Below the pieces are notes generated by a model that was not told where the DNA came from, searched no databases, and worked only from the letters and a program-made list of their open reading frames with translations. Positions 13,248-45,360 of a stretch of 64,000 nucleotides of DNA are shown here, piece after piece; within the stretch, counting starts at the first letter, position 1; every line of letters begins with the position of its first letter. A program made the translations under genes and the position numbers. Origin of the DNA: an uncultured Paracoccaceae bacterium (GTDB lineage Bacteria > Pseudomonadota > Alphaproteobacteria > Rhodobacterales > Rhodobacteraceae); NCBI GenBank assembly GCA_947502145.1, contig CANMYO010000001.1, positions 186,001 to 250,000 on the forward strand, given 5' to 3'.

Positions 13248-13351
13248 TCTGTTCCCCGTGAATAGCGTTCGATGGCTTTGACAATGGGGAAGGTATCTCA
13301 AAACACGGTTAACGCGCCGTCACGGTGTGGGACTTTATCGTGAACAAACGG

Positions 13352-21168: not shown

Positions 21169-21948
21169 CTAGACGATCCGTTCAACCATCTTTTTCTTGA
21201 TGCTGGCAATCGCCGCTGCAGGGTTCAATCCTTTGGGGCAGGTCTTGGCGCAGTTCATGATGGTGTGGCAGCGGTATAGCTTGAACGGGTCTTCAAGATC
21301 ATCAAGCCGTTCGCCTGTCGCCTCGTCCCGGCTGTCAACAATCCAGCGATGTGCCGCCAGCAGGGCTGCAGGCCCAAGATAGCGATCCCCGTTCCACCAA
21401 TAGGATGGGCAAGAGGTTGAGCAGCAGGCGCACATGACGCATTCGTACCCGCCGTCCAGCTTCTTGCGGTCGGCAATGGATTGCTTCCACTCTTTCGCGG
21501 GGGTGTTTGTCTTGGTTTCAAGCCACGGCATGATGCTGGCGTGCTGGGCGTAAAAGTGTGTCAGGTCCGGGATCAGATCCTTGACCACGGGCATATGTGG
21601 CAGCGGGTAAATCTTGATGTCGCCCTGCACTTCGTCAATGCCATAGATACAGGCAAGCGTGTTGATCCCGTCAATGTTCATCGCGCAAGACCCGCAGATC
21701 CCCTCGCGGCAGGACCGGCGGAAGGTCAGCGTCGGATCAATCTCGTTCTTGATCTTGATCAGCGCGTCCAGAATCATCGGACCGCAGGTGTCGAGATCGA
21801 CAAAATAGGTATCAAGCGACGGGTTTTTCCCGTCGTCTGGATTCCAGCGGTAGATCTGCACCTTGCGGACATTGGTCGCGCCTTCGGGCTTGGGCCAGGT
21901 CTTGCCCGTCACCATGCGAGAATTCTTGGGCAATGTCAGTTGAACCAT
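21169..21948 (-). CDS. sdhB: Succinate dehydrogenase iron-sulfur subunit
   Basis: A 259-residue subunit with all three Fe-S centres visible: the plant-ferredoxin motif [16 protein letters not shown] with a later Cys for 2Fe-2S near residue 75, [16 protein letters not shown] for 4Fe-4S near residue 165, and [17 protein letters not shown] for 3Fe-4S near residue 225. It passes electrons from SdhA to the membrane quinone site of complex II. It is the last gene of the sdhC-D-A-lipoprotein-B operon and is 21 bases after the small lipoprotein gene. Confidence 0.97.
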
Positions 21949-21969
21949 GACGGTCTCCTTACGGACAAT

Positions 21970-22302
21970 TTAGCGAAGCGCCGGCGGGCGAATGGGCGGT
22001 TGCCCGGTGCGCCGCATGACACAGGATTCATAGACAGCAAGGGGGTCGGCCCCTCGCAGGAAATCGGACGAGACCCCGATTGAGCCCTCAAAGAAGCCAC
22101 CGGTGCGCGAATTTGTCCCGACCGTGATTTCACCTGTCGGGCCCTGCGCGGCCCGCGCGCGGTCCTCACATTCCTGCGCGACCTTTTCGGGATCGGGCGG
22201 CGGCAGGTCGCAGGCTGACAATGTCGCAACAGCTCCGACCAACAAGGACAGTGGCAGCCTCACGCTTCCCGATCTGACCCTTGTCGGGCGCATCGCAGTC
22301 AT
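21970..22302 (-). CDS. Small lipoprotein inside the sdh operon
   Basis: A 110-residue protein with an N-terminal basic region, hydrophobic segment and lipobox-like TLSAC (Cys about residue 31), so it is probably an outer- or inner-membrane lipoprotein. The mature part has GEITVGTNSRTGGFFEGSIG and two more cysteines (EC and SC), which may pair. Its ATG shares one base with the sdhA stop, implying translational coupling. I recall a comparable lipoprotein between sdhA and sdhB in other Rhodobacteraceae. Function in complex II assembly or elsewhere is unknown. Confidence 0.78.
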   Translation of the reverse strand: MTAMRPTRVRSGSVRLPLSLLVGAVATLSACDLPPPDPEKVAQECEDRARAAQGPTGEITVGTNSRTGGFFEGSIGVSSDFLRGADPLAVYESCVMRRTGQPPIRPPALR

Positions 22303-24107
22303 CAGTACACCCGCGCCTTTGGTGCAATTTTCTTGAGGTCGATCCCGCCTTCTTTTTCGGTGGTGAGCGGGTCAAGGTGAACCGGTCGCGTGGTCAGTTT
22401 GACCTTGGCGCTGTCGACCGTTGCGAGGCTGTGAACGCGCCAGTTCTTGTCGTCGCGGTCCGGGTAATCCTCGTGCGCATGTGCGCCTCGGCTTTCCTTG
22501 CGGGCCTCAGCGGCGACAATCGTGGCCAGCGCATTGGGCATCAGGTTGGTCAGTTCAAGCGTTTCCATCAGGTCCGAGTTCCAGACCAGCGACCGGTCCG
22601 TGACCTTCAGATCACCCATCTTGCCTGCGATCGCCTCGACCTTTTTCACACCCTCAGCAAGGGTCTTGTCGGTGCGGAAAACGGCCGCATCGTCCTGCAT
22701 CGCTTTTTGCATTTCTAGCCGCAGCTCTGCCGTTGGGGTGGCACCATCGGCATGGCGCACATTGTCGAACCGATCAAACGCCTGATCGACTGAGGTCTGG
22801 TTCAGAACCGGGTTGGCGGCATTGGGGTCGACGACCTCACCCGCTTTGATCGCCGCCGCGCGACCAAAGACCACAAGGTCGATCAAGGAGTTCGAGCCCA
22901 AACGATTTGCACCGTGGACCGAGGCACAGCCCGCTTCGCCCACGGCCATCAGGCCGGGAACAACAGCGTCAGGATTATCCTTGGTCGGGTTCAGCACCTC
23001 ACCCCAGTAATTCGTCGGGATGCCGCCCATGTTATAATGCACGGTCGGCAGCACCGGGATCGGTTCCTTGGTCAGGTCGACGCCCGCAAAGATGCGCGCG
23101 CTTTCGGAAATACCGGGCAGGCGCAGGTCCAGCGTTTCGGGTGGCAGGTGATTGAGGTGCAGATGAATGTGGTCGCCATTGGCGCCAACACCGCGGCCTT
23201 CGCGGATTTCCATTGTCATGCACCGCGACACCACATCGCGCGAGGCGAGATCTTTGTAAGTCGGCGCATAACGCTCCATAAAGCGTTCGCCTTCGGAGTT
23301 GGTCAGATAGCCACCTTCGCCGCGTGCGCCTTCGGTAATCAGGCAACCGGCACCATAGATGCCGGTGGGATGGAACTGCACGAATTCCATGTCCTGCAAG
23401 GGCAGGCCCTGGCGGGCCACCATGCCGCCGCCGTCGCCGGTGCAGGTATGCGCAGAGGTGGCGCTGAAATAAGCGCGGCCGTAGCCGCCGGTCGCCAGCA
23501 CCGTGGTCTTGGCGTTGAAGACATGCATGGTGCCGTCATCAAGCTTCCATGCCACGACACCCTGACATTGCCCGTCTTCGGACATGATCAGGTCGGTCGC
23601 AAAATATTCGATATAGAACTCGGCCTTTTGTTTCAGGCTTTGACCGTAAAGCGTGTGCAGAATCGCATGGCCGGTGCGGTCGGCGGCGGCACAGGTGCGC
23701 TGTACGGGTGGGCCTTCGCCAAATTCTGTCGTGTGACCGCCAAAGGGCCGCTGATAAATGTTGCCGTCTTCAGTTCGGGAGAATGGCACACCGTAATGTT
23801 CCAGTTCGTAGACCGCCTTTGGCGCCTCGCGGGCGAGGTATTCCATCGCGTCGGTGTCACCCAGCCAGTCTGACCCCTTAACGGTGTCATACATGTGCCA
23901 TTGCCAGTGATCCGGCCCCATGTTTGACAGCGAGGCGGCGATGCCACCCTGTGCTGCCACCGTGTGGGAACGCGTCGGAAAGACCTTGGTGATACAGGCC
24001 GTTTTCAGCCCTTGCTCTGCAAGGCCCAGCGTTGCTCGCAGGCCAGCACCACCGGCCCCCACAACAATCGCGTCATAGACATGGGTTTCGTATTCGTATG
24101 CGGCCAT
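22302..24107 (-). CDS. sdhA: Succinate dehydrogenase flavoprotein subunit
   Basis: A 601-residue flavoprotein. The N-terminal FAD-binding motif is [14 protein letters not shown], and the covalent FAD His lies in [14 protein letters not shown]. The capping and active-site motifs [21 protein letters not shown] and [20 protein letters not shown] are intact. It oxidises succinate to fumarate. ATG at 24107 ([13 protein letters not shown]) is chosen because homologs start here; the upstream reading from 24176 overlaps sdhD. It starts 19 bases after the sdhD stop. Confidence 0.97.
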
Positions 24108-24126
24108 TTGGGATGCTCCGGCAGGA

Positions 24127-24498
24127 TTAAAGGGCAAGGCGCAGCACGGCGAAAACGCCAGCCGCTGCGGCTGCATAGGACAGGCAGATCATACCGATGA
24201 GCGTTGCCTTGCGGGCAAACCCATGCAGGTAATCTTCGATCAGGGTCTGCACGCCGCCACGAAAGTGGACAAAGCCGACAAGCAGGGTCAGCCCGGCGAT
24301 GATCGCGGGAACGGGGCGCTGATAATAGGCGACGACCTCTTCATAGGGGCTGCCAAGGATCGCGCCAAACGTGAAAATGAATGCAATGACAAGTGGCACG
24401 AGGGCCACGGCGGTCACCATCATTTTCCAGTGGTGTTCAGTTCCGGACTTGGCAGAACCAAGTCCGCTGGCGCGTTTACGGTCCGTCAAAAAAGCCAT
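24127..24498 (-). CDS. sdhD: Succinate dehydrogenase membrane anchor subunit
   Basis: A 123-residue subunit with three membrane segments (about residues 27-50, 62-82 and 97-120) and the conserved HxxxGxxxxxxDY-like stretch [20 protein letters not shown], which supplies heme or quinone ligands. It binds cytochrome b with SdhC and completes complex II. It lies between sdhC (10 bases upstream) and sdhA (19 bases downstream). Confidence 0.93.
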
Positions 24499-24508
24499 GA
24501 TGCGCCCC

Positions 24509-24892
24509 TCAAGCCACGATTACAGTAAAGATTGTCAGCAGGACCGACACCAGGATCGCGGCCTGCGCGTAGGTTTCTGACCGTTTGACATCCAGCATAT
24601 GGCCACTGTCCCAGATCAGGTGACGGACGCCAAAACATAGGTGATACCAGACCGCCCAGACCGACAGGAACATCACCAGATCGCCAAACCAGCTGGTCAC
24701 AAAACCATTTGCCGTCGCAAAGGCGGCCGGCCCGGCGGCGGCGGCAACAAACCACCAGACGATCATCAGCGCAGCCACGATCAGCGCATTGCCGGTCAGT
24801 CTGGTAAAGATTGAGGTCATGGATGTCAGTTGCGGACGATAGATCGTCAAATGCGGCGAAAGAGGGCGATTGCCCCGGTTCACATCGGCCAT
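24509..24892 (-). CDS. sdhC: Succinate dehydrogenase cytochrome b556 subunit
   Basis: A 127-residue subunit beginning MADVNRGNRPLSPHLTIYRP, the usual SdhC N-terminus, followed by SIFTRLTG at the quinone site and three membrane segments with the heme His region WYHLCFGVRHLIWDSGHML. The ATG at 24892 follows GGAAGGGAAC; a reading from a GTG at 24973 adds 27 unsupported residues. It is the first gene of the sdh operon, and its upstream gap contains two TGTGATCACA-like palindromes 21 bp apart. Confidence 0.94.
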   Translation of the reverse strand: MADVNRGNRPLSPHLTIYRPQLTSMTSIFTRLTGNALIVAALMIVWWFVAAAAGPAAFATANGFVTSWFGDLVMFLSVWAVWYHLCFGVRHLIWDSGHMLDVKRSETYAQAAILVSVLLTIFTVIVA

Positions 24893-25030
24893 GTCGGTTC
24901 CCTTCCTGGCGATACACCACTTAGCAGAGCGGTGCCTTTCACGCTTTATTGCCCATCCAATCCGCAGAGTCACGTAAACGCTGGCTTAAAATCCGCGCGA
25001 ATTTGCCACGTTAGCGCAAAAAATTGAGTT

Positions 25031-25061
25031 CGTGATCACATAATTTTCATGTGTGATCACA
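25031..25061. promoter_or_regulatory. Twin GTGATCAC palindromes upstream of sdhC
   Basis: GTGATCAC occurs at 25032-25039 and again inside TGTGATCACA at 25052-25061, centre to centre 21 bp (two helical turns). They lie about 140-170 bases upstream of the sdhC start in the only gap before the sdh operon. The same word pair with the same spacing precedes sucC, and a single copy precedes the gntR gene, so the GntR protein is the likely binder (inference). Confidence 0.7.
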
Positions 25062-27035: not shown

Positions 27036-27038
27036 AGT

Positions 27039-27584: not shown

Positions 27585-28420
27585 GAATTCTCCAATGCGG
27601 CGATGGCTTCGGCTTTCGCCAAAGTTGCCTGCGCTGTGAAGATATGCAAGTTCTCAACAATCTTTCCGTCAACAACAGCCACCCCCTGCCCGCTGGCTGT
27701 CGCGGCCTCAAATGCCTCGATCTGACGGCGCGCTAGGTCGATCTCATCCGCGCCTGGACCAAAGACATCGTTGCAGATCGCAACCTGTGCCGGGTGAATC
27801 AGGCTTTTGCCATCAAATCCCATGTCGCGGCCGGCATCACATTCTGCCCGTAGGCCCACATCATCCTTGAAAGCGTTAAAGACACCGTCAATGGCCACAA
27901 TACCCGCTGCACGCGCGGCAAGCAGGCAGTGCTGCAGTGCCATCGTCAGCGCATCGCGCCCGCGCGATCCCAGATCCTTGGCAAGGTCATTGGTGCCCAG
28001 GACAAACCCTGCCAACGCCGGATGTGCGGCGATGGCCTGCGCGTTGAGAACACCCTGAGGCGTTTCCATCATCGCCCACAGCGGTTTGCCCGGGAGCAGT
28101 TTGGCGAGCGCATCGAGATCTGCCGGGCCATTCACCTTGGGCAACAGCACCGCATCGCAATTCATGCTCGCAACTGCCGCGGCATCCGCATTGCCCCATT
28201 CCGTATCCAATGCATTGATCCGCACGATCGTCAGGCGCGGCCCGTATCCCTGCGCTAACGCTGCAGCAAGTGTGGTGCGGGCTTCGCATTTGGCATCAGG
28301 GGCAACTGCATCTTCGAGGTCAAACAAGATGACATCGACTGGCAGGGTGCGGGCCTTGTCCAGCGCCCGCGGGCGAGAACCGGGAATGTAAAGAGCAGAG
28401 CGGTGTGGGCGCGCGTTCAT
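27581..28420 (-). CDS. mcl2: (3S)-malyl-CoA thioesterase (Mcl2-type CitE family)
   Basis: A 279-residue TIM-barrel CitE-like protein that hydrolyses (3S)-malyl-CoA to malate and CoA, the last step of the ethylmalonyl-CoA pathway. Visible motifs are SALYIPGSRPRALDKARTLP, ILFDLEDAVAPDAK with the metal Asp/Glu, METPQGVLNAQ, and GFDGKSLIHPAQV. The N-terminal YIPGSRP form and length favour Mcl2 over the longer Mcl1 lyase (about 318 residues, FGPGSRP). ATG at 28420 follows GAGG; the reading from 28453 adds 11 residues. First gene of the operon ending in mch. A citrate-lyase-beta-like activity cannot be strictly excluded. Confidence 0.85.
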   Translation of the reverse strand: MNARPHRSALYIPGSRPRALDKARTLPVDVILFDLEDAVAPDAKCEARTTLAAALAQGYGPRLTIVRINALDTEWGNADAAAVASMNCDAVLLPKVNGPADLDALAKLLPGKPLWAMMETPQGVLNAQAIAAHPALAGFVLGTNDLAKDLGSRGRDALTMALQHCLLAARAAGIVAIDGVFNAFKDDVGLRAECDAGRDMGFDGKSLIHPAQVAICNDVFGPGADEIDLARRQIEAFEAATASGQGVAVVDGKIVENLHIFTAQATLAKAEAIAALENS

Positions 28421-28598
28421 CGAGACCTCGAAATTTTGTTGCGCGGACAACACCCCATTTGAACGGAAGTTTCAACCTAAAAATGCTGCAGCGCGGCAGA
28501 AGGGGCCACCGAACGGTCCGTTAACGGCCCTTAACCCTGTTGCGCACACCCTGATCCGCAGATGCAGCCCAAGACCCGGACCCTTGAAAGGACACCAA

Positions 28599-31777: not shown

Positions 31778-31812
31778 TTTGTGATCACAGCCAAAAAGGG
31801 TGTGATCACAAA
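31778..31812. promoter_or_regulatory. Twin GTGATCAC palindromes upstream of sucC
   Basis: TTTGTGATCACAG (31778-31790) and TGTGATCACAA (31801-31811) have GTGATCAC cores at 31781-31788 and 31802-31809, 21 bp centre to centre, as at sdhC. They lie about 100 bases before the sucC start in the 294-base gap after the glycosyltransferase gene. A plausible -10 (GATATATC) sits 17 bases downstream of the second box, so binding there would cover the -35 region (inference). Confidence 0.72.
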
Positions 31813-31905: not shown

Positions 31906-33099
31906 ATGAACATCCACGAATATCAGGCCAAGGCACTTTTGAAGTCTTTTGGCGCACCGGTCAGCGATGGCCGCCCCGTGCTGCGGGCAGAAGAGGCCAA
32001 GACAGCGGCAGGCGAACTTGACGGCCCACTTTGGGTTGTAAAGGCACAGATCCACGCGGGTGGACGCGGCAAAGGCAAGTTCAAAGAGGCTGACGCTGGC
32101 GATGCAGGCGGGGTGCGCCTGACAAAATCCGTCGAAGAAGCCGCCGCAGAGGCCAAGAAGATGCTGGGGCGCACTTTGGTGACGCATCAGACGGGCCCGG
32201 CAGGCAAACAGGTCAACCGCATCTACATCGAAGATGGCTCTGGCATTGAAACTGAAATGTATCTGGCACTGCTGGTGGACCGCGCGACCAGCCGCATCGG
32301 CTTTGTCTGTTCAACAGAGGGCGGCATGGACATTGAAGAGGTTGCGGCCTCTACCCCTGAAAAGATTCTCAATTTCACCGTTGATCCGGCAACCGGTTAT
32401 CAGCCCTACCATGGGCGTCGCGTGGCCTTTGCGCTGGGCCTTACAGGCCAGCAGGTCAAGCAATGTGTCAACCTGATGGGGCTGCTTTACAAAGCCTTTG
32501 TCGAAAAAGACATGGAGATGCTTGAGATCAACCCGCTGATCGTGACCGACAAGGGTGATTTGAAGGTGCTTGACGCGAAAGTCTCATTTGATGGCAACGC
32601 CGTTTATCGCCATCAGGACGTTGCTGCGCTGCGTGACGAAACCGAGGAAGATCCCAAGGAACTCGCCGCGTCAAAGTATGACCTGAACTACATCGCGCTG
32701 GACGGCGAAATCGGGTGTATGGTCAATGGCGCGGGCCTTGCGATGGCGACAATGGACATCATCAAGCTTTATGGCGCAGAACCTGCCAACTTTCTTGATG
32801 TCGGCGGCGGGGCAACCAAGGAAAAGGTGACCGAAGCATTCAAGATCATCACCTCAGACCCGAACGTCAAAGGCATTCTTGTGAATATCTTTGGTGGCAT
32901 CATGCGCTGCGACGTGATCGCAGAAGGCGTGGTTGCCGCTGTGAAAGAGGTTGGGTTGCAGGTGCCGCTTGTTGTTCGGCTCGAAGGGACAAATGTCGAG
33001 GCTGGCAAGGACATCATCAACAATTCGGATGTTGATGTGATCGCTGCAGACGACCTCAAGGACGGGGCCCAAAAGATCGTGAAGGCGGTCAAGGGGTAA
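31906..33099 (+). CDS. sucC: Succinyl-CoA synthetase beta subunit
   Basis: A 397-residue ATP-grasp subunit. [20 protein letters not shown] is the usual start, with [16 protein letters not shown] for nucleotide, EINPLIVT for metal, and [16 protein letters not shown] with [16 protein letters not shown] for the CoA/alpha interface. It makes ATP or GTP with succinate from succinyl-CoA. ATG at 31906 follows GGGGAAATC; the reading from 31864 adds 14 residues. It is first in the suc operon, but is separated from sucD by five small exported-protein genes, which is uncommon. Confidence 0.96.
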
Positions 33100-33105
33100 T
33101 CGCAG

Positions 33106-33711
33106 GTGTCGGTCACCAAGCTACTTTTGCTGGTGAGTCTTGCAGCTCTCACGACAGGCTGCATGACCGGCATGGCGCGTCAGGATCTGACCGAAGGCGA
33201 AGCGCTTTCGGCGTTCGACCAGACATGCCTTGCCGACATACGGGCGCGCGATAATCCAGATGTCGCAATCGAAGACCTCGCGCGCAACCTCAACCGTCCT
33301 GTTAGGATCATGCGCGGAAATGGCCGCACCGTGATTTCCGGAATCGATCGCGATGCCGACCTGCAATATTCTGTGACTCGGCTGTCGCCTACTGAGAACC
33401 CGCGCGGGCACAATCTGGTGCGGGTGAAATGCGCACTGGGGTTCTCCATTGATGACCAGTCCGAAGTGATGCGGAGGCTTCCTGCACTTTTGGGGAACGA
33501 CCTGAACCTGACGCAGATTTCCGATGGCTTTGTCACACAATTGGAAGAGGTGCGCACCTATGACGGGACGCGGGTGCGCGTCACGCTCACGCCAGAGGGC
33601 GACGTTGTCATTGACCGCCTGAACGAAGACTTGACCGGAGCAAACGATTTTCGGTTCACAACATTGTCGGTGCGCTGGCTACGCGCGCCACAAGAAAGCG
33701 ATCCGAAATGA
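33106..33711 (+). CDS. Putative lipoprotein after sucC
   Basis: A 201-residue protein with a GTG start six bases after the sucC stop. The signal sequence ends LTTGC, a lipobox-like motif with Cys near residue 19. The mature body has two further cysteines (QTCLADI and VKCALGF) and an alternating strand pattern. No family is recognised. Codon use resembles its neighbours. It may be translated with sucC, but nothing links it to succinyl-CoA metabolism. Confidence 0.65.
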
Positions 33712-33912
33712 CCCGAGCGCAGCAGACAGTTTGGCATCACACGCCAGCGTGCGATCAGGGTGCACAACCCGCCGAGGATTTGGGCATGGTCCTTCCCCCT
33801 GACCTGCCCATAAAAGATCACATTTTAGACAAATCGGCGCTAAATCCCTTTGGCAAACAGTCGGGACATGCAGCGGGTCCGCCCCCTGCACCTGATCTGA
33901 GGGGATTGAGTT

Positions 33913-34101
33913 ATGAAAAAGATCGCACTGCCACTGATTCTGGCATCGACGCTGACCGCCTGCATGGGCAGCACGGACGGCGCAAGCTTTTCGAAAAGCG
34001 CCGCGCTGTCAGGCAACTGCCCCAGTGTGCACATGAAAACAACAAACGGTCTGCCAATGCGTTGCGGTCCGCAGGCCGAGCTTCCCTACACCTATCAATA
34101 G
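33913..34101 (+). CDS. Small lipoprotein, paralog A (NGLPMRCGPQ family)
   Basis: A 62-residue lipoprotein precursor. The signal peptide ends with a lipobox LTAC (Cys17), leaving a mature peptide of about 46 residues with two Cys (GNCPS and MRCGPQ). A site GAGGGG lies eight bases before the ATG. The C-terminal motif NGLPMRCGPQ is shared with the paralog at 34336. It lies between sucC and sucD, and a hairpin follows the stop. Function unknown. Confidence 0.7.
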   Translation: MKKIALPLILASTLTACMGSTDGASFSKSAALSGNCPSVHMKTTNGLPMRCGPQAELPYTYQ

Positions 34102-34108
34102 ACAACCA

Positions 34109-34127
34109 CCGGGCGCAGCGCGCCCGG
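34109..34127 (+). terminator. Stem-loop after lipoprotein paralog A
   Basis: CCGGGCGC (34109-34116) and GCGCCCGG (34120-34127) form a perfect 8-bp stem with a three-base loop, seven bases after the stop. No T-tract follows; it is a weak terminator or an mRNA stabiliser. Confidence 0.5.
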
Positions 34128-34335
34128 ATGGTTAAATCTGGTGGACAGGTCAGAGCGCGCGGGGAACCGCCAAAAGCGGTGTTAACCGGCCAGCAACTAT
34201 TTGCCATGCTTTTGCCGCTTCATGTCCATCTGATGGACATTCAGCCCCAATACATCCTCAAGACAGAACAAGCCCCGGTGCCGCCGCTGCGGTTGGGCCG
34301 GATTACGCAGCTGCCCCTGTCAAAGGATATTGAAC

Positions 34336-34524
34336 ATGAAGAAGATCGCACTTTCACTTATTGCCGCCGTAACCCTGTCCGCATGTCTGGACAGCGGGGG
34401 CGCGTCCGTCGCACGTCTGGACACATTGTCCAGCAATTGTTCGGGCAGCCAGCACATGCAGACCATGAATGGCCTGCCAATGCGTTGCGGCCCACAGGTC
34501 GCGTCGCCCTACACCTTCAAGTAA
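34336..34524 (+). CDS. Small lipoprotein, paralog B (NGLPMRCGPQ family)
   Basis: A 62-residue lipoprotein precursor from the ATG at 34336 (AAAGGAT upstream). Its signal and lipobox (LSAC) and the C-terminal motif NGLPMRCGPQVASPYTFK closely follow paralog A, while the middle has diverged (SQHMQTM versus SVHMKTT). The two genes are about 235 bases apart. A duplication within the suc operon is the simplest explanation. It is followed by a hairpin. Confidence 0.7.
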   Translation: MKKIALSLIAAVTLSACLDSGGASVARLDTLSSNCSGSQHMQTMNGLPMRCGPQVASPYTFK

Positions 34525-34568
34525 GCCGGTCAAAGTCGGGCCATTCCGGCCCCACGACTGGTCTTTTG

Positions 34569-34598
34569 CACCCGGCCCTGCCCACACAGGACCGGGTG
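34569..34598 (+). terminator. Hairpin after lipoprotein paralog B
   Basis: CACCCGGCCCTG (34569-34580) pairs with CAGGACCGGGTG (34587-34598) with one mismatch. It lies between paralog B and the next exported-protein gene, with no T-run. Confidence 0.5.
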
Positions 34599-34621
34599 AT
34601 TTGCGTTCAGAGGTCATGCCA

Positions 34622-35119
34622 ATGATCCGCGCGCTTGCCCTTCCCCTTGCCCTGAGTACTGCGCCGGCGTTTGCCGACACACAGGCAATTGCACCGGGCG
34701 CACAGCTGTCCCCGGCGCAGGTCGGGCATATCTTTGATGCTGTCTGCTTTGGCAGCACGCCCATCGGCATGACCGAACGGGTTGTCCTTGCCGAAAGTGC
34801 GTTTTTCTTCGCGCCCGAAGATCTGGGCACCGACTTTGGCTATGTCAGCCCCGATGGGGCGATCATAGTCACACTGGATGGCAACCCGATCGAAGCTGTT
34901 TGCACCCTGTCCGTGGCGTCCAACTTTATCGGTGATGGCGCAGCGCTTTATGACAGTGTTCTGCTGCACCTTGCCACCCAGCTTGACGCGCCGGTTCCAG
35001 AAGGCACGGCCATCGACGGTGGTCTGCAATGGCAATGGGACCAGCTGAACGCGTCCTTCACGATGACATTCATTGAAACCGAAGGGGCATTTCTGCTGTC
35101 CCTTACAGCGGAAAGTTAG
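34622..35119 (+). CDS. Secreted protein of unknown function
   Basis: A 165-residue protein with a signal peptide of about 18 residues (ending APAFADT) and no lipobox. The mature part carries two cysteines (AVCFGST and AVCTLSV) and a strand-rich C-terminus ending TMTFIETEGAFLLSLTAES. The ATG at 34622 has AGAGG eight bases upstream; 34616 is an alternative. The next lipoprotein gene starts six bases after its stop. A distant resemblance to that protein (single N-terminal helix, FDAVC versus FYDVC) suggests the two share a fold. Confidence 0.68.
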   Translation: MIRALALPLALSTAPAFADTQAIAPGAQLSPAQVGHIFDAVCFGSTPIGMTERVVLAESAFFFAPEDLGTDFGYVSPDGAIIVTLDGNPIEAVCTLSVASNFIGDGAALYDSVLLHLATQLDAPVPEGTAIDGGLQWQWDQLNASFTMTFIETEGAFLLSLTAES

Positions 35120-35125
35120 AACAGG

Positions 35126-35578
35126 ATGCATGCAAATTCGCTTAATATGATCGCTGCAGCGTCGCTGGTGTTTCTATCCGGATGTGCCGGAACTGCAGAA
35201 TCGCCAAATGCCGGGCCCGGTGCCCAGGACGCGGATTCTGCCGTTGCTGCACGCATCTTTTACGACGTCTGCGTCGAAACATTGCCGACCCATGACGGCG
35301 CGGCGGCGGCGCTGGCCAACTACCCCTTCACGCGCCATTCCACCTTTGGCACTTACTACCACAATGTGCAAAACCTGTCGGTCAAGATCGTCGGAGGCCA
35401 ATGCTCCATGGTGTTTGCGACATCTTCCAATCCAACCCAATTCATCGTCGCTTTTGGCCGCTCGCTTGACGCGATCGCACAGGCCAATGGCAAAACAAAC
35501 GTTGACGTCAGTCTGGGCGGCGGACCGCAACCTGACGGCAAATTCTACGCAAACGCACGCACTGCTGCGACACAATAA
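35126..35578 (+). CDS. Putative lipoprotein before sucD
   Basis: A 150-residue protein with a lipobox FLSGC near residue 20 and a mature part carrying [20 protein letters not shown], two cysteines (DVC and GQC), and a strand-rich end. It follows the secreted protein by six bases with AGGATGC before the ATG, and is 11 bases before sucD. The pattern YDVC...C resembles the preceding protein. Function unknown; envelope location inferred from the lipobox. Confidence 0.68.
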
Positions 35579-35589
35579 GGACAGTTCAC

Positions 35590-36471
35590 ATGGCCATTCT
35601 CGTCGACAAAAACACTAAGGTGATCTGCCAGGGCCTGACAGGCTCTCAGGGCACGTTCCACTCAGAACAGGCCATCGCCTACGGCACGCAGATGGTGGGC
35701 GGCGTAACACCCGGCAAGGGAGGGCAGACCCATCTGGACCTGCCGATCTTCAATTCGGTGCACGAAGCCAAGGCGAAGACCGAGGCGAACGCCTCTGTCA
35801 TCTATGTTCCGCCGCCCTTTGCCGCGGATTCGATCCTTGAAGCGATCGATGCCGAGATGGAATTGATCATCTGCATCACCGAAGGCATTCCCGTGCTCGA
35901 CATGATGCGCGTCAAACGCGCGCTGGAAGGCTCCGCTTCCCGCCTGATCGGCCCCAACTGTCCCGGCGTGATCACACCCGACGCCTGCAAAATCGGCATT
36001 ATGCCCGGCCATATCCACAAGCGCGGCTCGGTCGGTGTTGTGTCTCGTTCCGGCACGCTGACCTATGAGGCGGTGAAGCAGACATCTGATTCAGGTCTTG
36101 GCCAATCCACGGCAGTCGGGATCGGCGGTGACCCGATCAAAGGCACCGAACATATCGATGTGCTTGATATGTTCCTGGACGATGATGAAACCCATTCGAT
36201 GATCATGATCGGTGAAATCGGCGGCTCGGCAGAGGAAGAAGCCGCCGAATTTCTGACCGCACAGAAGAAAAAGGGCCGCTGGAAGCCGGTTGCCGGATTC
36301 ATCGCAGGCCGCACCGCGCCTCCGGGCCGCCGCATGGGCCACGCCGGTGCAATTGTCGCTGGCGGCAAGGGTGACGCGGAAAGCAAGATCGAAGCGATGA
36401 AATCCGCCGGCATCATCGTCGCTGATAGCCCCGCAACGCTGGGTGAGGCTGTGCTTGAGGCCATCGGCTAA
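35590..36471 (+). CDS. sucD: Succinyl-CoA synthetase alpha subunit
   Basis: A 293-residue subunit. [20 protein letters not shown] is the CoA-binding start, [20 protein letters not shown] follows, and [17 protein letters not shown] holds the active-site His that is phosphorylated. It completes the enzyme with SucC. It is separated from sucC by about 2.5 kb of small genes, although both are on the same strand. A GTGATCAC word inside it (35968-35975) comes from the codons for Val-Ile-Thr and is probably accidental. Confidence 0.97.
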
Positions 36472-36499
36472 TGCCCAACGGGTGCTGCATCAGACAAAA

Positions 36500-36580
36500 G
36501 GGCAGCGCCGGACCCTGGGTGGGTGCTGAAAGCGCCCTCCCATGGGGAGGGTCGGGCGCTGCCCGGCCTATGGGCCGGGC
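36500..36580 (+). repeat. Cluster of three strong stem-loops between sucD and DUF805
   Basis: GGGCAGCGCC (36500-36509) pairs with GGCGCTGCCC (36555-36564). Inside it CCCTCCC (36535-36541) pairs with GGGAGGG (36545-36551). Overlapping the end, GCCCGGCC (36561-36568) pairs with GGCCGGGC (36573-36580), so two folds compete for 36561-36564. No T-run. A structured intercistronic element, maybe affecting expression of the sucA genes downstream. Confidence 0.6.
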
Positions 36581-36592
36581 GGGACATCGCTG

Positions 36593-37093
36593 ATGGGACC
36601 AATAGGCGCAATCCGGACCGGCTTTGCCAAGTCGTTCCAGTTCAGCGGCCGCGCCACGCGGTCCGCGTTTTGGTGGTTTGCGCCGGGTTATGCCGCCTTG
36701 CTCACGGCAGGCTTCTTTTTCGAAATCATCCCCAATCTAATGTCGGCCGCGTTACCCAGCTTGAGACATCTCGGGGTCGCTCCGCTCTTCTTCCTTTGGC
36801 TTCTACTTCTGACGCCCACCTTCGCAGCATTCACACGGCGACTGAGCGATATAGGTTTCAGCGCGGCTTGGGTGCTTGTGGTGCCCCTCTACCTTCTGGG
36901 TGCGATCCCGCTTGCCGTCGCCGTCGATGCCTCTCCGACGTGGGGCATTCCACATCCCGCGCGCGGCGCACCAGAACTATTCTGGATGTTTGAAGGATTG
37001 ATCTTTCTGATGAGCATCGGCCTGCTGATCAGCCTCTTCCCCTCGCAACGACACAAGATTCTCCGGCCCAACCCCAACGAGGTCCCCCAATGA
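36593..37093 (+). CDS. DUF805 family membrane protein
   Basis: A 166-residue protein. The N-terminal GFAKSFQFSGRATRSAFWWF is the DUF805 pattern, followed by four membrane segments and TRRLSDIGFSAAWVL with the conserved RLxD motif. ATG at 36593 is chosen; the reading from 36542 crosses the stem-loops. It overlaps sucA by ATGA, so it is coupled to sucA. Function of DUF805 is unknown. Confidence 0.82.
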   Translation: MGPIGAIRTGFAKSFQFSGRATRSAFWWFAPGYAALLTAGFFFEIIPNLMSAALPSLRHLGVAPLFFLWLLLLTPTFAAFTRRLSDIGFSAAWVLVVPLYLLGAIPLAVAVDASPTWGIPHPARGAPELFWMFEGLIFLMSIGLLISLFPSQRHKILRPNPNEVPQ

Positions 37094-40053
37094 ACGACCA
37101 TTCCCCAAACGACGTCTTTCACGCCTCTTCCTTCATGCAGGGGCACAATGCGGAATATGTGGAACAGCTTTATGCCCGCTACGCCGACAATCCCGGCGCG
37201 GTCGATGAAAGCTGGCAGGCGTTTTTCCGCAGCCTTGGTGACGCCCCTGCGGATGCCAAGGCAGAGGCGGCGGGCCCAAGCTGGGCACGTCACGATTGGC
37301 CGCCCGTTCCCAATGATGATCTGACCGCTGCCCTTGACGGGCAATGGCCCTCCGAACCCGAAGCGGCGGGCAAGAAGATCAAGGACAAGGCCGCCGAAAA
37401 GGGCGTGTCGCTTGATGAAAATCAGGTCCGCGCCGCGGTGCTGGACAGTATCCGTGCGCTGATGATCATCCGCGCCTACCGGATTCGGGGGCATCTGATC
37501 GCTGACCTTGATCCGCTTGGCATGCGGGCAAACACGCCACATCCCGAACTGGATCCTGCCTCTTACGGGTTTACGGGCGCGGACATGGATCGCCCGATCT
37601 TTATCGACAATGTGCTGGGCCTCGAAGTGGCCACGATGAACGAGATCCTCGCCATCGTGCGCCGCACCTACTGCGGCACCTTTGCGCTGCAATACATGCA
37701 TATCTCAAACCCCGAAGAAGCTGGCTGGCTCAAGGAACGGATTGAGGGTTACGGCAAGGAAATCAATTTTACCCAGAATGGGCGCAAGGCGATCTTGAAC
37801 TCGCTCGTGCAAGCCGAAGGTTTCGAGAAATTCCTGCATGTCAAATACATGGGCACGAAGCGGTTTGGCCTTGATGGTGGCGAAAGCCTGATCCCGGCGA
37901 TGGAGCAGATCATCAAGCGCGGCGGTCAGCTGGGGCTTGAGGATATTGTCATCGGGATGCCGCACCGGGGGCGTCTGTCCGTGCTCGCCAATGTGATGCA
38001 GAAGCCCTATCGCGCGATTTTCAACGAATTCCAGGGCGGATCATTCAAGCCCGAGGATGTCGACGGATCGGGCGATGTGAAATACCATCTGGGTGCCTCA
38101 TCGGACCGGACGTTTGATGACAATGTTGTTCACCTGTCGCTGACCGCAAACCCCAGCCACCTTGAGGCCGTGAACCCCGTTGTTCTGGGCAAGGTGCGCG
38201 CCAAACAGGACCAGAAAAACGACGAAGACCGCACAAAGGTCATGGCAATCCTGCTGCATGGTGATGCTGCATTTGCCGGGCAAGGCGTTGTTGCCGAAGG
38301 TTTTGGCCTGTCCGGTTTGCGCGGTCACAAAACCGGCGGGACGATGCATATCGTCGTGAACAACCAGATCGGGTTTACGACCGCGCCGCACTTCAGCCGG
38401 TCCAGCCCCTACCCCACTGATATCGCGTTGATGGTTGAGGCCCCGATTTTCCACGTTAATGGCGACGATCCCGAGGCTGTGGTTCATGCCGCACGCGTGG
38501 CCACTGAGTTCCGCCAGAAATTCCACAAGGACGTGGTGCTGGATATCATCTGCTACCGCCGCTTTGGTCACAACGAAGGCGATGAGCCGATGTTCACCAA
38601 CCCGGTCATGTATAAGAAGATCAAGACGCATAAAACGTCCCTTACGCTTTATACCGAACGACTTGTCCGCGACGGGTTGATCCCCGAGGGCGAGATCGAG
38701 GACATGAAAGCCGCGTTTCAGGCCCATTTGAACGAAGAGTTCGAGACCGGCAAATCGTACAAGCCCAACAAGGCCGATTGGCTTGACGGGCGCTGGTCCC
38801 ATCTGGACCGGCGCGATGCGGAGAATTACGAACGTGGCAAGACGGCGATCAATCCAGAAACGCTGGCCGACATTGGCACGGCCCTGACCACACTGCCGCA
38901 GGATTTCAAGGTCCACCGGACGGTCGAACGTCTGGTCGGTGCGAAGAAGGCAATGTTTGAAAGTGGCGAAGGCTTTGACTGGGCCACGGGTGAGGCGCTG
39001 GCCTTTGGATCGCTGGTGGTCGAAGGTTATCCGGTGCGCCTGTCAGGACAGGATTGTACCCGCGGCACGTTCAGCCATCGCCACTCTGCCTTTATCAATC
39101 AGGACAACGAAGAACGCTACTATCCGCTGAACAACATCCGCGACGGCCAAGCCAACTACGAAGTCATTGATTCGATGCTTTCGGAATATGCCGTTCTGGG
39201 CTTTGAATATGGCTATTCGCTGGCTGAACCCAACGCACTGACCCTGTGGGAAGCGCAGTTTGGCGACTTTGCCAATGGGGCGCAGATCATGTTTGACCAG
39301 TTCATTAGCTCTGGTGAATCCAAATGGTTGCGCATGTCCGGGCTGGTCTGCCTGCTGCCCCACGGCTATGAGGGTCAGGGGCCAGAGCATTCCTCTGCCC
39401 GGTTGGAACGGTTTCTGACGATGTGTGGCGGCGACAATTGGATCGTTGCCAATTGCACAACGCCAGCCAACTATTTTCACCTGTTGCGTCGGCAGATTCA
39501 TCGCGACTTCCGCAAACCGCTGATTATCATGACGCCGAAATCATTGCTGCGCCACAAGTTGGCAGTGTCGAAGGCCGAGGAATTCACCACCGGATCCTCG
39601 TTCCACCGCGTCCTTTGGGACGACGCGCAGCATGGCAATTCTGATCTGAAACTGAAACCGGACAACAAGATCAAGCGCGTCGTGATGTGTTCGGGCAAGG
39701 TCTATTTTGACCTGTTGGGAGCCCGCGACGAAGCGGGTGCCGATGACACCTACATCATGCGGTTTGAACAATTTTATCCATTCCCGGCCCAGTCGGCGGT
39801 GAACGAACTGCAACGGTTCAAGAACGCCGAAATGGTCTGGTGTCAGGAAGAACCCAAAAACCAGGGCGCGTGGTCCTTTATGGAGCCCAACCTTGAATGG
39901 GTCCTGACCCGGATCAAGGCAAAGAACACCCGACCAAGCTATGCGGGTCGCCCTGCCGCTGCCAGCCCTGCCACGGGACTGGCCAGCCAGCACAAAGCAC
40001 AGCAAGCCGCGCTCGTGAATGACGCGCTGAACCTTGAAGGATCAAAAAAATGA
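37090..40053 (+). CDS. sucA: 2-oxoglutarate dehydrogenase E1 component
   Basis: A 987-residue thiamine-diphosphate enzyme. The N-terminal [20 protein letters not shown] is the E1o start that contacts E2. Further marks are [15 protein letters not shown], the TPP-binding [15 protein letters not shown] with [21 protein letters not shown], and later [19 protein letters not shown]. It decarboxylates 2-oxoglutarate and loads succinyl groups on SucB lipoyl. Its stop overlaps the sucB start by four bases. Confidence 0.97.
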
Positions 40054-41249
40054 GTACCGAAGTCCGCGTCCCTACCCTTGGCGAGTCCGTAACAGAAGCG
40101 ACAGTTGCCACATGGTTCAAGCAACCCGGTGATGCTGTCGCCGTGGATGAAATGCTGTGTGAACTTGAAACCGACAAAGTCACCGTTGAGGTGCCAAGCC
40201 CGGTTGCGGGCACCCTGTCCGAAATCGTGGCCGCCGAAGGTGAAACCGTTGGTGTTGATGCGCTTTTGGCGCAGATCGCCGAAGGTGACGGTGCTGCCGC
40301 TGCCCCCAAAGCCGCTGCCGATGATGCGCCAAAAGCTGCTGAAAAACCGGCTGCGGACGCTGCCGGAAAGGATGTCGAAGATGCGCCCTCCGCCAAAAAG
40401 CTGATGGCGGAAAACGACCTGACGAACGTGCAGGGCACCGGCAAAGATGGCCGGGTGATGAAAGAGGATGTGCTGAACGCCCTCGCCTCAACTTCCCCCG
40501 CCGCAGCGCCGGCCGCCGCACCCCGTGCACCCGTTGCTGCCGATCAGGCCGCGCGCGAGGAACGCGTCAAGATGACCCGCCTGCGCCAGACCATCGCCAA
40601 GCGTCTCAAGGACAGTCAGAACACCGCTGCGATGCTGACCACCTATAATGAGGTCGACATGACCGAGGTCATGGCATTGCGCAATGAATACAAAGACTTG
40701 TTCCTGAAGAAGCATGGGGTGAAGCTGGGCTTCATGTCGTTCTTTACCAAGGCCTGCGTGCATGCCCTGCGCGAAGTGCCCGAGGTCAATGCCGAGATTG
40801 ACGGCACCGACATAGTTTACAAATCCTACGTCAACATGGGGATCGCCGCAGGCACCCCGACCGGTCTTGTCGTGCCTGTCATCAACGATGCCGACGCGAT
40901 GAGCTTTGCAGACATCGAAAAGGCGATCGCCGAAAAGGGCGCCAAGGCGCGCGACGGCAAATTGTCGATGGCTGAAATGCAGGGCGGCACCTTCACGATC
41001 TCAAACGGCGGTGTCTACGGTTCGCTCATGTCCTCGCCCATCCTGAACCCGCCGCAGTCAGGCATCCTTGGCATGCACAAGATCCAGGACCGCCCGATGG
41101 CGATCAACGGAGAGGTCGTGATCCGCCCGATGATGTATCTCGCCTTGTCCTACGATCACCGGATCGTCGATGGCAAAGGTGCTGTGACCTTCCTTGTGCG
41201 GGTGAAAGAAGCGCTTGAGGATCCACGCCGGTTGTTGATGGATTTGTGA
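40050..41249 (+). CDS. sucB: Dihydrolipoyl succinyltransferase (E2)
   Basis: A 399-residue E2. Residues 1-77 are the lipoyl domain with lysine 43 in [14 protein letters not shown]. An Ala/Pro linker leads to the E3-binding domain ([20 protein letters not shown]) and then the catalytic domain ending [17 protein letters not shown], where His and Asp are catalytic. It transfers succinyl to CoA. It is coupled to sucA. An unusual AT-rich gene begins three bases after its stop. Confidence 0.97.
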
Positions 41250-41252
41250 CCT

Positions 41253-41951
41253 ATGGAGTTGCTTGGTGTTGAGAATTCAATATTGGGTTTGCGGGACCAC
41301 ATGAAGAATTGGCCAAATGAGAGGTGCTATCGAAAAAACTTTACGCTGGCTGACGAAGACGACGAGAAGTTGATTAGCGAGCCACTTCGCGATTTTTCAG
41401 TTTGGCGTTGGTTGGATGAGAAAGGAAGAAAAGACTTACGGAGGGTCATTCGAGATTTCCCAAAAGAAGGGGAATTTTCGAAAAATGTCGGCGATTGTAT
41501 CAAGAACCTAGGTAAACAAAAGTCTGGGTGGTGGGCCTCGGGCATGTCAAAGGCTCTATGGTTTGCTAGCAAGCACGAGTATCCTATGTATGACCGCTTC
41601 ACCGCAGCCGCATTTAAAAAACTTGACGGGACCGATGCTCGCGAACGGTGCATATCGTTTTATCAAAAATTGGAGGACAGTTGTTATCTCGATCTCAAAA
41701 AAGAGTTCGACGAGATGGAAATGCCCGAAGCACTCAGAACCGTTCGGTTTGACCGGTTCATTGACAAGTCGTTGATGGTAGCAGGATTGTATCGCTACAC
41801 AAAGAAGAGCTTTAAGAACTTCGATATTTCGATACAATTTCGAGCCAGTGACACTTCCGAGCCTTCCACGGAATATTGCAGGTTTGCGAAACATTGGGCC
41901 GAAAGATTTAAGAAAACCGGTTTTGTCAATGTGCTAACTAGCGAATCATGA
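41253..41951 (+). CDS. AT-rich orphan protein inserted in the sucB-lpd operon
   Basis: A 232-residue cytoplasmic protein of unknown function. It has no signal peptide and many charged residues (DEDDEKLI, EKGRKDLRRVI), and a core WWASGMSKALWFASKHEYPM followed by YDRFTAAAFKK. The SKxLWF...P.YD pattern faintly recalls helix-hairpin-helix OGG-fold proteins, but I cannot support that. Base use is visibly AT-richer than sucA/sucB on one side and MAPEG on the other, including rare-looking AGA/AGG and ATA codons, so it was probably acquired. Yet it fits perfectly into the operon: three bases after sucB, and its TGA overlaps the MAPEG ATG (ATGA). Confidence 0.72.
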   Translation: MELLGVENSILGLRDHMKNWPNERCYRKNFTLADEDDEKLISEPLRDFSVWRWLDEKGRKDLRRVIRDFPKEGEFSKNVGDCIKNLGKQKSGWWASGMSKALWFASKHEYPMYDRFTAAAFKKLDGTDARERCISFYQKLEDSCYLDLKKEFDEMEMPEALRTVRFDRFIDKSLMVAGLYRYTKKSFKNFDISIQFRASDTSEPSTEYCRFAKHWAERFKKTGFVNVLTSES

Positions 41952-42358
41952 CCCCCGAACTCACCGCGCTTGCCTATGCCGCACTGTTTCAAGGACTGCA
42001 CTTCGCGGTCTTGTCTGCTTTGGCCTATTTCGAACTGGGCGGCGGCAAGCTGGTCGCGCCGCGTGACCCGGAACGGCTGGGCAAACCATTGGCGGAACAT
42101 GTCAGCGTCAGAACCGGGCGGTTGTTTCGGGCAATGAACAACCATTTTGAGGCGTTGATCCTCTTTACCGCTGCTGTGGCCGTAGTCTCGCTTGCCGACA
42201 AGAACACCGGTTTCTCGGCAATTTGTGCCTACGCCTATCTTGGTGCCCGCGTCCTCTATGTCCCTGCATATTACTTTGGCCTGACGCCCTGGCGAACGCT
42301 GATCTGGTTTGTTGGGTTTACCGCCACGATGCTGATGTTACTGTCGGCACTGATGTGA
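41948..42358 (+). CDS. MAPEG family membrane protein
   Basis: A 136-residue protein with four membrane segments and the pattern RTGRLFRAMNNHFEALILFT, the conserved R..R...N..E of MAPEG (glutathione/eicosanoid-metabolism) proteins, plus ARVLYVPAYYFGLTPWRTL. A role in glutathione transfer is possible but bacterial MAPEG substrates are unknown. I recall a MAPEG gene between sucB and lpd in Rhodobacter, so its position is ancestral and the AT-rich gene before it is the insert. Confidence 0.87.
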   Translation: MTPELTALAYAALFQGLHFAVLSALAYFELGGGKLVAPRDPERLGKPLAEHVSVRTGRLFRAMNNHFEALILFTAAVAVVSLADKNTGFSAICAYAYLGARVLYVPAYYFGLTPWRTLIWFVGFTATMLMLLSALM

Positions 42359-42472
42359 ATTTCATCGCCCATTGATCCTCATAGGGTTAATGCGCGTTCA
42401 TAAGTCTGGCAGCATGGGTTGTTGCCGCGATGTGCATGGCTTGTGCATGTCAAAATACCGAAGGAGAGGCCC

Positions 42473-43861
42473 ATGGCCAGTTACGACGTCATCATCATCG
42501 GTTCCGGCCCCGGCGGCTATGTTTCGGCCATCCGCTGCGCGCAATTGGGTTTGAAGACCGCCTGTGTCGAAGGACGCGAAACCCTTGGCGGCACCTGCCT
42601 CAACGTCGGCTGCATCCCCTCAAAGGCGCTGCTGCATGCCACCGAAATGCTGCATGAGGCGCAACATAACTTCGCCGAGATGGGGCTGAAGGGTAAGGCC
42701 CAATCCGTCGATTGGAAACAGATGTTGGCCTACAAGGACAAGACCATCACGCAGAATACCGGTGGCATCGAATTTCTTTTCAAAAAGAACAAGGTAGACT
42801 GGCTCAAAGGTTGGGGGTCCATCCCGGAGGCTGGCAAAGTCAAGGTGGGCGATGAGGTCCACGAGGCCAAGCATATCGTGATCGCCACAGGTTCGGAATC
42901 GTCGTCCCTGCCGGGTGTCGAGGTCGACGAAAAGACCGTTGTGACCTCGACTGGCGCGCTTGAATTGGGCAAGATTCCCAAAAGCCTTGTAGTGATCGGT
43001 GCGGGCGTCATCGGTCTTGAACTTGGGTCCGTCTATGCGCGCCTGGGATCAGAAGTGACTGTTGTCGAATACCTGGACGCGATCACCCCCGGCCAAGATG
43101 GTGAGGTTGCCAAGGTTTTCCAAAGAACGTTGAAAAAGCAAGGGCTTAAGTTCATCATGGGGGCCGCAGTGCAGGGTACGACGGTCAAGAACAACAAGGC
43201 CACGGTGACCTACAAATTGCGCAAGGATGACAGCGAAGCGACACTGACAGCCGATACTGTGCTGGTCGCGACAGGTCGCAAGCCATACACAGATGGGCTG
43301 GGTCTGGCGGAGTTGGGCGTTGAATTGTCTGATCGTGGACAGATCAAAACCGATGCGCATTATGCGACCAATATCAAAGGGATATACGCCATCGGCGACG
43401 CGATTGCGGGGCCGATGCTGGCCCACAAGGCTGAGGATGAGGGCATGGCCGTTGCCGAAGGCATTGCCGGTCAAAAGCCGCATGTGAACTACGGTGTGAT
43501 TCCCGGAGTGATTTATACCCATCCCGAAGTATCAAGTGTCGGCGAGACGGAAGAATCCCTGAAAGAACAAGGCCGTGCCTACAAGGTTGGCAAATTCAGC
43601 TTCATGGGCAACGCACGTGCAAAGGCGAATTTTTCAGGTGATGGATTTGTGAAATTGCTGGCCGACAAGGCGACAGATCGGATTCTTGGTGCACATATCA
43701 TTGGCCCGATGGCCGGAGATCTGATCCATGAAATCTGCGTCGCAATGGAGTTCGGCGCCGCGGCCGAGGATATCGCCCGCACCTGCCATGCCCATCCGAC
43801 CTACTCGGAGGCCGTCCGCGAAGCGGCGCTGGCCTGTGGCGACGGTGCAATCCACATGTAG
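42473..43861 (+). CDS. lpdA: Dihydrolipoamide dehydrogenase (E3)
   Basis: A 462-residue flavoprotein disulfide oxidoreductase. FAD motif [19 protein letters not shown], redox-active [13 protein letters not shown] with Cys42 and Cys47, NAD motif [20 protein letters not shown], and the C-terminal catalytic HAHPTYSEA are all intact. It reoxidises lipoyl groups of 2-oxoglutarate dehydrogenase, and possibly of other lipoyl complexes. ATG at 42473 follows GAAGGAGAGGCCC; the reading from 42419 adds 18 residues. A G-rich hairpin follows. Confidence 0.97.
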
Positions 43862-43867
43862 CTTTTG

Positions 43868-43892
43868 GGGTGGGGGGCCGCCCTACCCTTTT
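43868..43892 (+). terminator. Terminator-like G/C hairpin between lpdA and gntR
   Basis: GGGTGGGG (43868-43875) faces CCCTACCC (43881-43888) with imperfect pairing, followed by TTTT. It overlaps the stop codon of the convergent gntR gene. Confidence 0.5.
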
Positions 43893-44530
43893 AACAGTCG
43901 CAGCCCCTTGGTGGTGTCGGTGCGGACCGCAAGGCGCAAGCCCGGTTCATCCCCGGCGCGCAGGGCTGCGATGATAAGCCGATGCGTCGCGGGCGGTTCC
44001 GTGCGGTTCAGCCGCCCATACAGGGCCCGCATCGTCGGGCCAAGTTGCAGCCAGACGGTTTCTGTCATTGCCAGCATCGCCGGGGCCTGGGCCCGCAGAT
44101 AAAGCGTGCGGTGAAAATCAAGGTTCATGCGGATATAGCCTGTCGCGTCATGCCGGGCGATCATCTGGCTGACCGCCTGGTTGATCGCCTCCAGCCTTTC
44201 GATCAGCGCAAAATGCGCCCGCGGGAGCGCACGGCTTGCCAGTTCAGGCTCCAACAACGCCCGCAAGGTTGCAAGCTCTTCGATGCGTTCATTGCTGAGT
44301 TCCGGAGTCGAAACGCGGCCTGACGATGACATTGACAGCGCCCCTTCGGCCGCCAGTCTGCGCACCGCTTCGCGCGCGGGGGTCATCGACACGTTGAAAT
44401 CCTTGCCGATGCCGCGCAATGTCAAGGCGGTCCCGGGCGGAACCTCTCCGTGCATGATGCGGGTGCGTAAAGCGCGATAGACGCGGTCATGTTCTGCGCC
44501 GGTGTTTTCAACTGATTTGGGTTGGATCAT
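43883..44530 (-). CDS. GntR-family (FCD) regulator, probable TCA-gene regulator
   Basis: A 215-residue regulator. Residues 14-75 are a winged HTH (RVYRALRTRIMHGEVPPGTA, then NVSMTPAREAVRRLAAEGAL). Residues 80-215 are an FCD ligand domain, with the metal-binding pattern near NLDFHRTLYLRAQA and RLIIAALRAGD. FCD proteins usually sense carboxylates. It lies 22 bases from lpdA, convergent with the TCA operon. Its own promoter has TTTGTGATCACAAA just before the ATG, and twin copies of that word lie before sdhC and sucC. Regulation of TCA genes by this protein is inferred. The ligand is unknown. Confidence 0.85.
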   Translation of the reverse strand: MIQPKSVENTGAEHDRVYRALRTRIMHGEVPPGTALTLRGIGKDFNVSMTPAREAVRRLAAEGALSMSSSGRVSTPELSNERIEELATLRALLEPELASRALPRAHFALIERLEAINQAVSQMIARHDATGYIRMNLDFHRTLYLRAQAPAMLAMTETVWLQLGPTMRALYGRLNRTEPPATHRLIIAALRAGDEPGLRLAVRTDTTKGLRLLKG

Positions 44531-44534
44531 GGCT

Positions 44535-44550
44535 CTTTGTGATCACAAAA
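44535..44550. promoter_or_regulatory. TTTGTGATCACAAA palindrome at the gntR start
   Basis: A near-perfect 14-bp palindrome at 44536-44549, core GTGATCAC at 44539-44546, centred 12 bases upstream of the gntR ATG. That position suits autorepression. A further GTGATCAC at 44594-44601 lies 55 bp upstream, inside the end of the ygjP-like gene. Confidence 0.7.
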
Positions 44551-44560
44551 TGAAGTCAGG

Positions 44561-45247
44561 TCAAACAAACTGAAAACGATGCAGCTGATCGCCGTGATCA
44601 CGTAACCAATTTCGCCGCGACTGATACTCCGGCATCAGTTTTGCCACAACAGCCCAGAACGCGGACGAATGGTTCATTTCCACAAGATGCGCAACTTCGT
44701 GTGCTGCGACGTAGTCCAGCACCTCTGGCGGGGCCATGATCAGGCGCCACGAGTACATCAGAACCCCCTTGCTAGAGCAGGACCCCCACCGGCTGCGCGT
44801 GTCGCGCAGAGAAAGCCGCGTATAGGACACGCCCAATGCGGCAGCATAGGCATCAGAGCGGGCAGCAAGGACATCGCGTGCAGCAAGTCGCAGGAAAGCC
44901 TTGATGCGTGCACCCGGGTTTTCATCGGCGGGCACCAGCAGCTTGTCGCCATCGCACCTGGTGCGCCTGACAGCCGCAGGCGCAACTGAAAGCTGCCCCC
45001 CACGAAAAGGGATCACGCTGCCCAGCCGCACGGTATGAGGTGATGCCACCTGTGACAGGTGATCGCGCAACCACCGTTCACGGCCAGTAAGAAAACCCAT
45101 TGCCTCACGCTCTGACGCGCCCTGCGGCATTGTCAGGCTGACACGCCCATCTAATCGCGAGACCCGTAGCGAAAGCCGCTTGGCACGCTGAGACCGCCGC
45201 AAATCCACCGTAATCGGGGGGTTGCCAATTGTGACCTGTCGGCCCAT
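44561..45247 (-). CDS. YgjP-like metal-dependent hydrolase
   Basis: A 228-residue protein of the YgjP/DUF45 (SprT-like) metallopeptidase family. RDTRSRWGSCSSKGVLMYSW precedes the zinc motif AAHEVAHLVEMNHS (HExxH) near residue 175, and the C-terminal W..V and Y..R residues are in place. Start 45247 (MGRQVTIGNPP) has AAAGG six bases upstream; 45253 and 45295 are less likely. The neighbour TIGR02300 gene diverges. Substrate unknown. Confidence 0.85.
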   Translation of the reverse strand: MGRQVTIGNPPITVDLRRSQRAKRLSLRVSRLDGRVSLTMPQGASEREAMGFLTGRERWLRDHLSQVASPHTVRLGSVIPFRGGQLSVAPAAVRRTRCDGDKLLVPADENPGARIKAFLRLAARDVLAARSDAYAAALGVSYTRLSLRDTRSRWGSCSSKGVLMYSWRLIMAPPEVLDYVAAHEVAHLVEMNHSSAFWAVVAKLMPEYQSRRNWLRDHGDQLHRFQFV

Positions 45248-45360
45248 ATCCATCCTTTGTCCGGTCAATGGGTCAAAGCCTTTGACACCATGCATTGCTT
45301 ATGGCAGTTGGCCGTGATGACCCGCAAGAGTCGCGAAGAATTTTCAAAAGGGGGAAACCC

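Follow-up and report, generated by a model that had tools for sequence, protein, structure and literature searches.

How are the TCA-cycle genes of this bacterium controlled, and does the GntR-type regulator encoded beside lpdA take part? The window, meaning the whole 64-kb stretch of DNA that was analysed, holds the regulator gene (gntR) at 43883..44530 on the minus strand, with a product of 215 aa. The initial annotation had placed a palindrome at the start of this gene, and such a palindrome is there: TTTGTGATCACAAA occupies 44536..44549, its centre lying 12.5 nt ahead of the ATG at 44530. Two putative target units are encoded in the same window. The sdhC to sdhB operon is found at 21169..24892 on the minus strand, with the sdhC ATG at 24892. 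The run from sucC to lpdA is found at 31906..43861 on the plus strand and is composed of sucC (31906-33099), sucD (35590-36471), sucA (37090-40053), sucB (40050-41249) and lpdA (42419-43861), with unrelated small genes interspersed. The sucC-sucD interval of ~2.5 kb (33106-35578) contains small open frames without a Pfam match; at one related locus (L168), both genes are adjacent. Elsewhere, the window encodes a LuxI-type autoinducer synthase (12618-13301) and, between sdh and suc, mesaconyl-CoA hydratase-like and HpcH/HpaI lyase genes (25807-28453) that presumably belong to an ethylmalonyl-CoA pathway region.

The 8-base core of the palindrome, GTGATCAC, occurs seven times in the window (at 25032, 25053, 31781, 31802, 35968, 44539 and 44594) versus 1.15 copies expected, and none of 100 shuffles gave seven. 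Four of these copies form two pairs. Before sdhC, on the minus strand, the upstream box is at 25053..25060 and the promoter-proximal box at 25032..25039; before sucC, on the plus strand, they are at 31781..31788 and 31802..31809, the latter ending 96 nt before the sucC ATG. Both pairs have 13 nt between the cores (N13), or 21 bp centre to centre. The claim that the same word stands at gntR, sdhC and sucC holds for this core but fails for the 14-mer. Within the window, gntR alone has an exact copy of TTTGTGATCACAAA; each of the four paired boxes is one or two bases off it, and with three mismatches allowed the 14-mer has five matches versus 2.86 expected, which is not above chance; the word common to the sites is thus the 8-base core. 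The copies at 35968, within sucD, and at 44594 fit the number expected by chance. The latter had been put forward as an auxiliary site and was rejected because it lies inside the ygjP frame (44561-45295) and is not conserved, with 0 of 29 other gntR loci showing a further exact copy within 200 nt.

A small, TCA-centred regulon had been proposed, and the wider counts agree. Across the whole genome (4.03 Mb), GTGATCAC-N9..17-GTGATCAC was found solely at sdhC and sucC, and the reversed-pattern control gave no match. Pairs in relatives are mostly at the same places: 68 of the 72 pair loci among those listed are directly before sdhC (32) or sucC (36), spaced by N13 in 63 and N12 in 5, and the other 4 were left unassigned. 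Extra pairs away from both genes were seen at L082 and L112 of one genome (G044) and at L083 of another (G042), two of them with N10, and are possible further targets. A near match to the 14-mer at C3:309959 (L004) was tried as an extra regulon member and rejected, being inside a reading frame.

The gntR product matches the Pfam families GntR (E=3.6e-13) and FCD (E=1e-18). The closest paralog encoded in the same genome is 26% identical, and against the curated NCBIfam GntR regulators PRK11414, PhnR, NanR and CsiR the best score was 79.9 bits versus a cut-off of 225, so that none was reached. The metal site of its FCD domain reads N-H-H-D (N136, H140, H183, D205), whereas the canonical FCD site is D-H-H-H. 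These four residues are invariant in 12 aligned orthologs and in the copy of Rhodobacter (Cereibacter) sphaeroides described below, and the paralogs of the same genome have D and H at the metal-site positions where alignable. This variant may alter metal or ligand binding. The predicted structure (mean pLDDT 62.3) was left out of this reading.

For comparison, a genome (G051) was chosen in which 168 of 168 malyl-CoA lyase residues agree with PDB 4l9y, and the species of this genome was inferred from that match. We take 4l9y to be the R. sphaeroides enzyme and G051 to fit R. sphaeroides 2.4.1. Its closest relative of the gntR product is 75% identical and the next best is 30%. The gene is directly past sdhB with ygjP beside it, lpdA-sucB-sucA-sucD-sucC are on the other side of sdh, and both 21-bp pairs are present. 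This gene order is the order implied by the numbers RSP_0962 to RSP_0981, and RSP_0981 is presumably AkgR. Given the identity, the distance to the next best relative and this gene order, the gene next to lpdA is, as judged from sequence, the ortholog of AkgR. ygjP also adjoins it in the window and in all 80 further loci read. A Paracoccus denitrificans replicon carries a named ortholog, 71% identical, with TTGAC-N13-GTGATCAC before its start.

RSP_0981 (GntR) is predicted in PMC4344238 (PLoS Comput Biol 2015) to regulate sucCD (RSP_0967-6) and also sdh (RSP_0974-6) and sucA-lpd (RSP_0965-62). In its lines on AkgR, PMC6365646 (citing Imam et al., mBio 2015) terms AkgR a transcriptional activator and prints GTGATCAC among the AkgR sites. 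The initial annotation knew of no characterised counterpart with this site; the gene is AkgR, and its site is in print. A literature search on AkgR found nothing beyond these two papers, as far as their relevant passages go, and those passages hold no mention of the spacing, phase or self-site described below. The akgR finding is therefore real but largely known.

The pairs before sdhC and sucC, whose outer flanks are T-rich and A-rich, stand in a regular relation to the promoter. At sdhC of the window, a -35-like GTGACT (24968..24973, minus strand) follows 58 nt after the pair, and a -10-like CAATAA (24946..24951, minus strand) corresponds to a family consensus of TAnnAA. [GT]TGAC follows the pair in 27 of 32 sdhC loci, with TAnnAA 16 nt further, and was not found in the other 5. 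A search of 394 genomes for pair-N44..74-GTGACW gave matches in 237. Gaps were counted in the 150 matches listed, taken as motif matches whichever gene they precede: 55-60 nt in 132, 47-48 in 7, 69-70 in 9, and single cases of 44 and 66 nt. Of the 18 gaps beyond the main peak, 16 differ from it by one helical turn (p 2e-8 on the assumption of independence, which does not hold for genera); neither of the two off-phase cases is an sdhC promoter, one facing away from sdhC (G219) and the other standing before sucC (G146). In a second search (N75-105), 8 of 21 matches had a gap of 77-80, which is two turns further out, and one of these 8 stands before sucC; the other 13 are scattered at 84-105, off the ladder, and look like background. 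The gap between the pair and the sdhC -35 element thus moves in steps of ~10.5 bp. At sucC, the -35 element is weakly conserved, with T at +48 to +50 in 22-26 of 32 loci, which suggests an element about one turn nearer; a clear one was not discerned before sucC in the window.

Spacing that shifts by full turns of the helix is as expected for an upstream activator, and the pairs at sdhC and sucC appear to have this geometry, with a protein facing RNA polymerase on one face of the helix. Most FCD GntR proteins are repressors. With that background and a box in repressor position at akgR, AkgR might instead repress sdh, suc and itself until a TCA intermediate releases it. The pairs, however, are well upstream of the predicted -35 element and move relative to it by whole turns, and the passage of PMC6365646 on AkgR calls the protein an activator. 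For these reasons, the repression of sdh and suc first annotated is unlikely, and a repressor acting at all three sites is improbable.

The akgR -35 element TTGACC (44559..44564, minus strand) touches the ygjP stop codon, and its spacing to the box is conserved. The -10-like CACAAA (44536..44541, minus strand), 17 nt from it, is made of the right half of the box plus flank. Because this element ends 5 nt before the ATG, the akgR transcript is probably leaderless, starting at or near the ATG. An exact box is near the gntR start in 21 of 30 loci, and the 80 further loci have an exact box in 57, one mismatch in 4 and none in 19. It follows TTGAC by exactly 13 nt in 48 of the 80, and in 52 of the 57 loci with a box its end is 8-11 nt from the first in-frame ATG. 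At 13 nt after TTGAC, the box occupies the interval as far as the -10 element and should block the promoter, so the single box is indeed in the position of an autorepressor, between the -35 and -10 elements of its own promoter. Autorepression of akgR by this site is probable in the window organism. It is not universal, since 23 of the 80 close loci and R. sphaeroides are without the exact box; the R. sphaeroides-inferred promoter has TTGAC and no box, so that self-repression there, by this site at least, is judged absent. Overlap with the -10 element, together with the loci that lack an exact box (R. sphaeroides and the same 23), would also suit a -10 sequence that is palindromic by chance and has no regulatory role. 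The eight core bases and TTT/A flanks are nevertheless kept at fixed spacing in 48 promoters, where the search required the core and not the flanks, and a chance palindrome is accordingly unlikely.

Footprinting of the motif beside gntR orthologs, proposed in the initial annotation, was carried out on 248 genomes of the family, one per genus. The gntR product was found in 231 genera (E<=1e-20). The pair (N8-18) was found in 222, most often as two copies in a genome, and the reversed pattern gave no match. Counted by eye, a strong gntR (E<1e-80) occurs with the pair in 218 genera and without it in 4, a weak or absent gntR occurs with the pair in 4, and 22 have neither. The two thus go together in all but 8 discordant genera (Fisher p 1.3e-23, kinship ignored). 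Among the strong gntR genomes without an exact pair, a pair with a single mismatch stands before sucC in G040, and a true sucC was not found in G147, G155 and G166. One genome (G033) keeps the pair alongside a 46% identical protein. Boxes kept in genomes without the ortholog had been named as evidence against the regulator, and here the outcome mostly favours the regulator. Of the 22 double-negative genomes, 19 have sucC, and in none of these does an exact box lie 350 nt or less from it; the pair is kept, though, without a detected ortholog in G096 (77% complete) and in G019 and G114 (best GntR relative 37%). Single one-mismatch boxes are near sucC in 3 of the 19, including two genomes with broken gntR remains: G157 (L261, C5:11667-12295) and G109 (L258, C56:33057-33555). 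In both, decay has left no more than one inexact copy of the sucC boxes, and gntR is in pieces.

Independent losses of gntR and the pair are few. A SucC tree of 39 rows, partly picked for having the pair, needs 8 changes for gntR and 6 for the pair, and its well-supported branches hold only 2 independent contrasts, too few for a sign test. Beyond the family, a sample of 118 genomes from the class (including 2 from the family) gave ortholog-like matches of no more than 41% identity, and a single other family showed the pair (G407, N14); in this sample the system therefore looks restricted to the family. It is very probable that GTGATCAC is recognised by the gntR product. That some other regulator reads the word at sdhC and sucC while gntR merely shares the site is very unlikely, for although the pair persists in three genomes where no ortholog was detected and further GntR proteins may read GTGATCAC (PS417_07240 is proposed to in the part of PMC6365646 on its palindrome), gntR and the boxes co-occur and decay in step, the word is among the AkgR sites given in that paper, and a box stands at the gntR gene itself.

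We consider it highly likely that the AkgR ortholog activates the TCA operons through paired dimers and shuts off akgR through a single dimer. An AkgR dimer would read TTTGTGATCACAAA. At sdhC and sucC, two dimers would share one face of the DNA, with two helical turns between them, and lie ~90-120 bp ahead of the predicted transcription starts. Judging by the literature and the geometry, they would from there help RNA polymerase to start sdhCDAB and the sucCD-AB-lpdA run. At akgR, the position of the box suggests that a single dimer would cover the space from -35 to -10, shut the promoter and so limit the level of the activator. Going by the family, the probable signal is a carboxylate linked to the TCA cycle, which the FCD domain would bind. 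It is somewhat better than an even chance that AkgR of roseobacter-type relatives acts as a two-way switch, joining phase-locked upstream activation to self-repression, and that R. sphaeroides lost this feedback or never had it. The sucA-lpd genes may be transcribed by read-through from sucC. No box was found between sucD and sucA in the window or in the R. sphaeroides stretch read, and sucA-lpd as a separate AkgR target is, in the relevant section of PMC4344238, a prediction and not a defining trait.

These results tie TCA control in an unstudied genome to a known regulator. They also give precise promoter rules (21-bp pairs, helical phase to the -35 element and a self-site) across most examined genera of a major marine bacterial family, and the helical ladder offers a natural record, of a rare kind, that an upstream activator has to face its promoter.

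Three known systems invite comparison. By sequence profile, the closest solved structure is E. coli McbR (PDB 4p9f, E=3.5e-23), a relation at the level of the fold only, with a different function. Pseudomonas simiae PS417_07240, the regulator of a deoxyribonate cluster, is likewise GntR-like with GTGATCAC proposed as its palindrome, but its target genes differ and it is 32% identical to AkgR, a figure given in the same passage of PMC6365646. AkgR of R. sphaeroides is the same in its GntR family, its word GTGATCAC, its sdh and sucCD-AB-lpd targets and its 21-bp pairs. It differs in that its gene is beside sdhB, whereas akgR of the window is beside lpdA, and in that the window gene has a box on its own core promoter while the R. 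sphaeroides-inferred genome does not.
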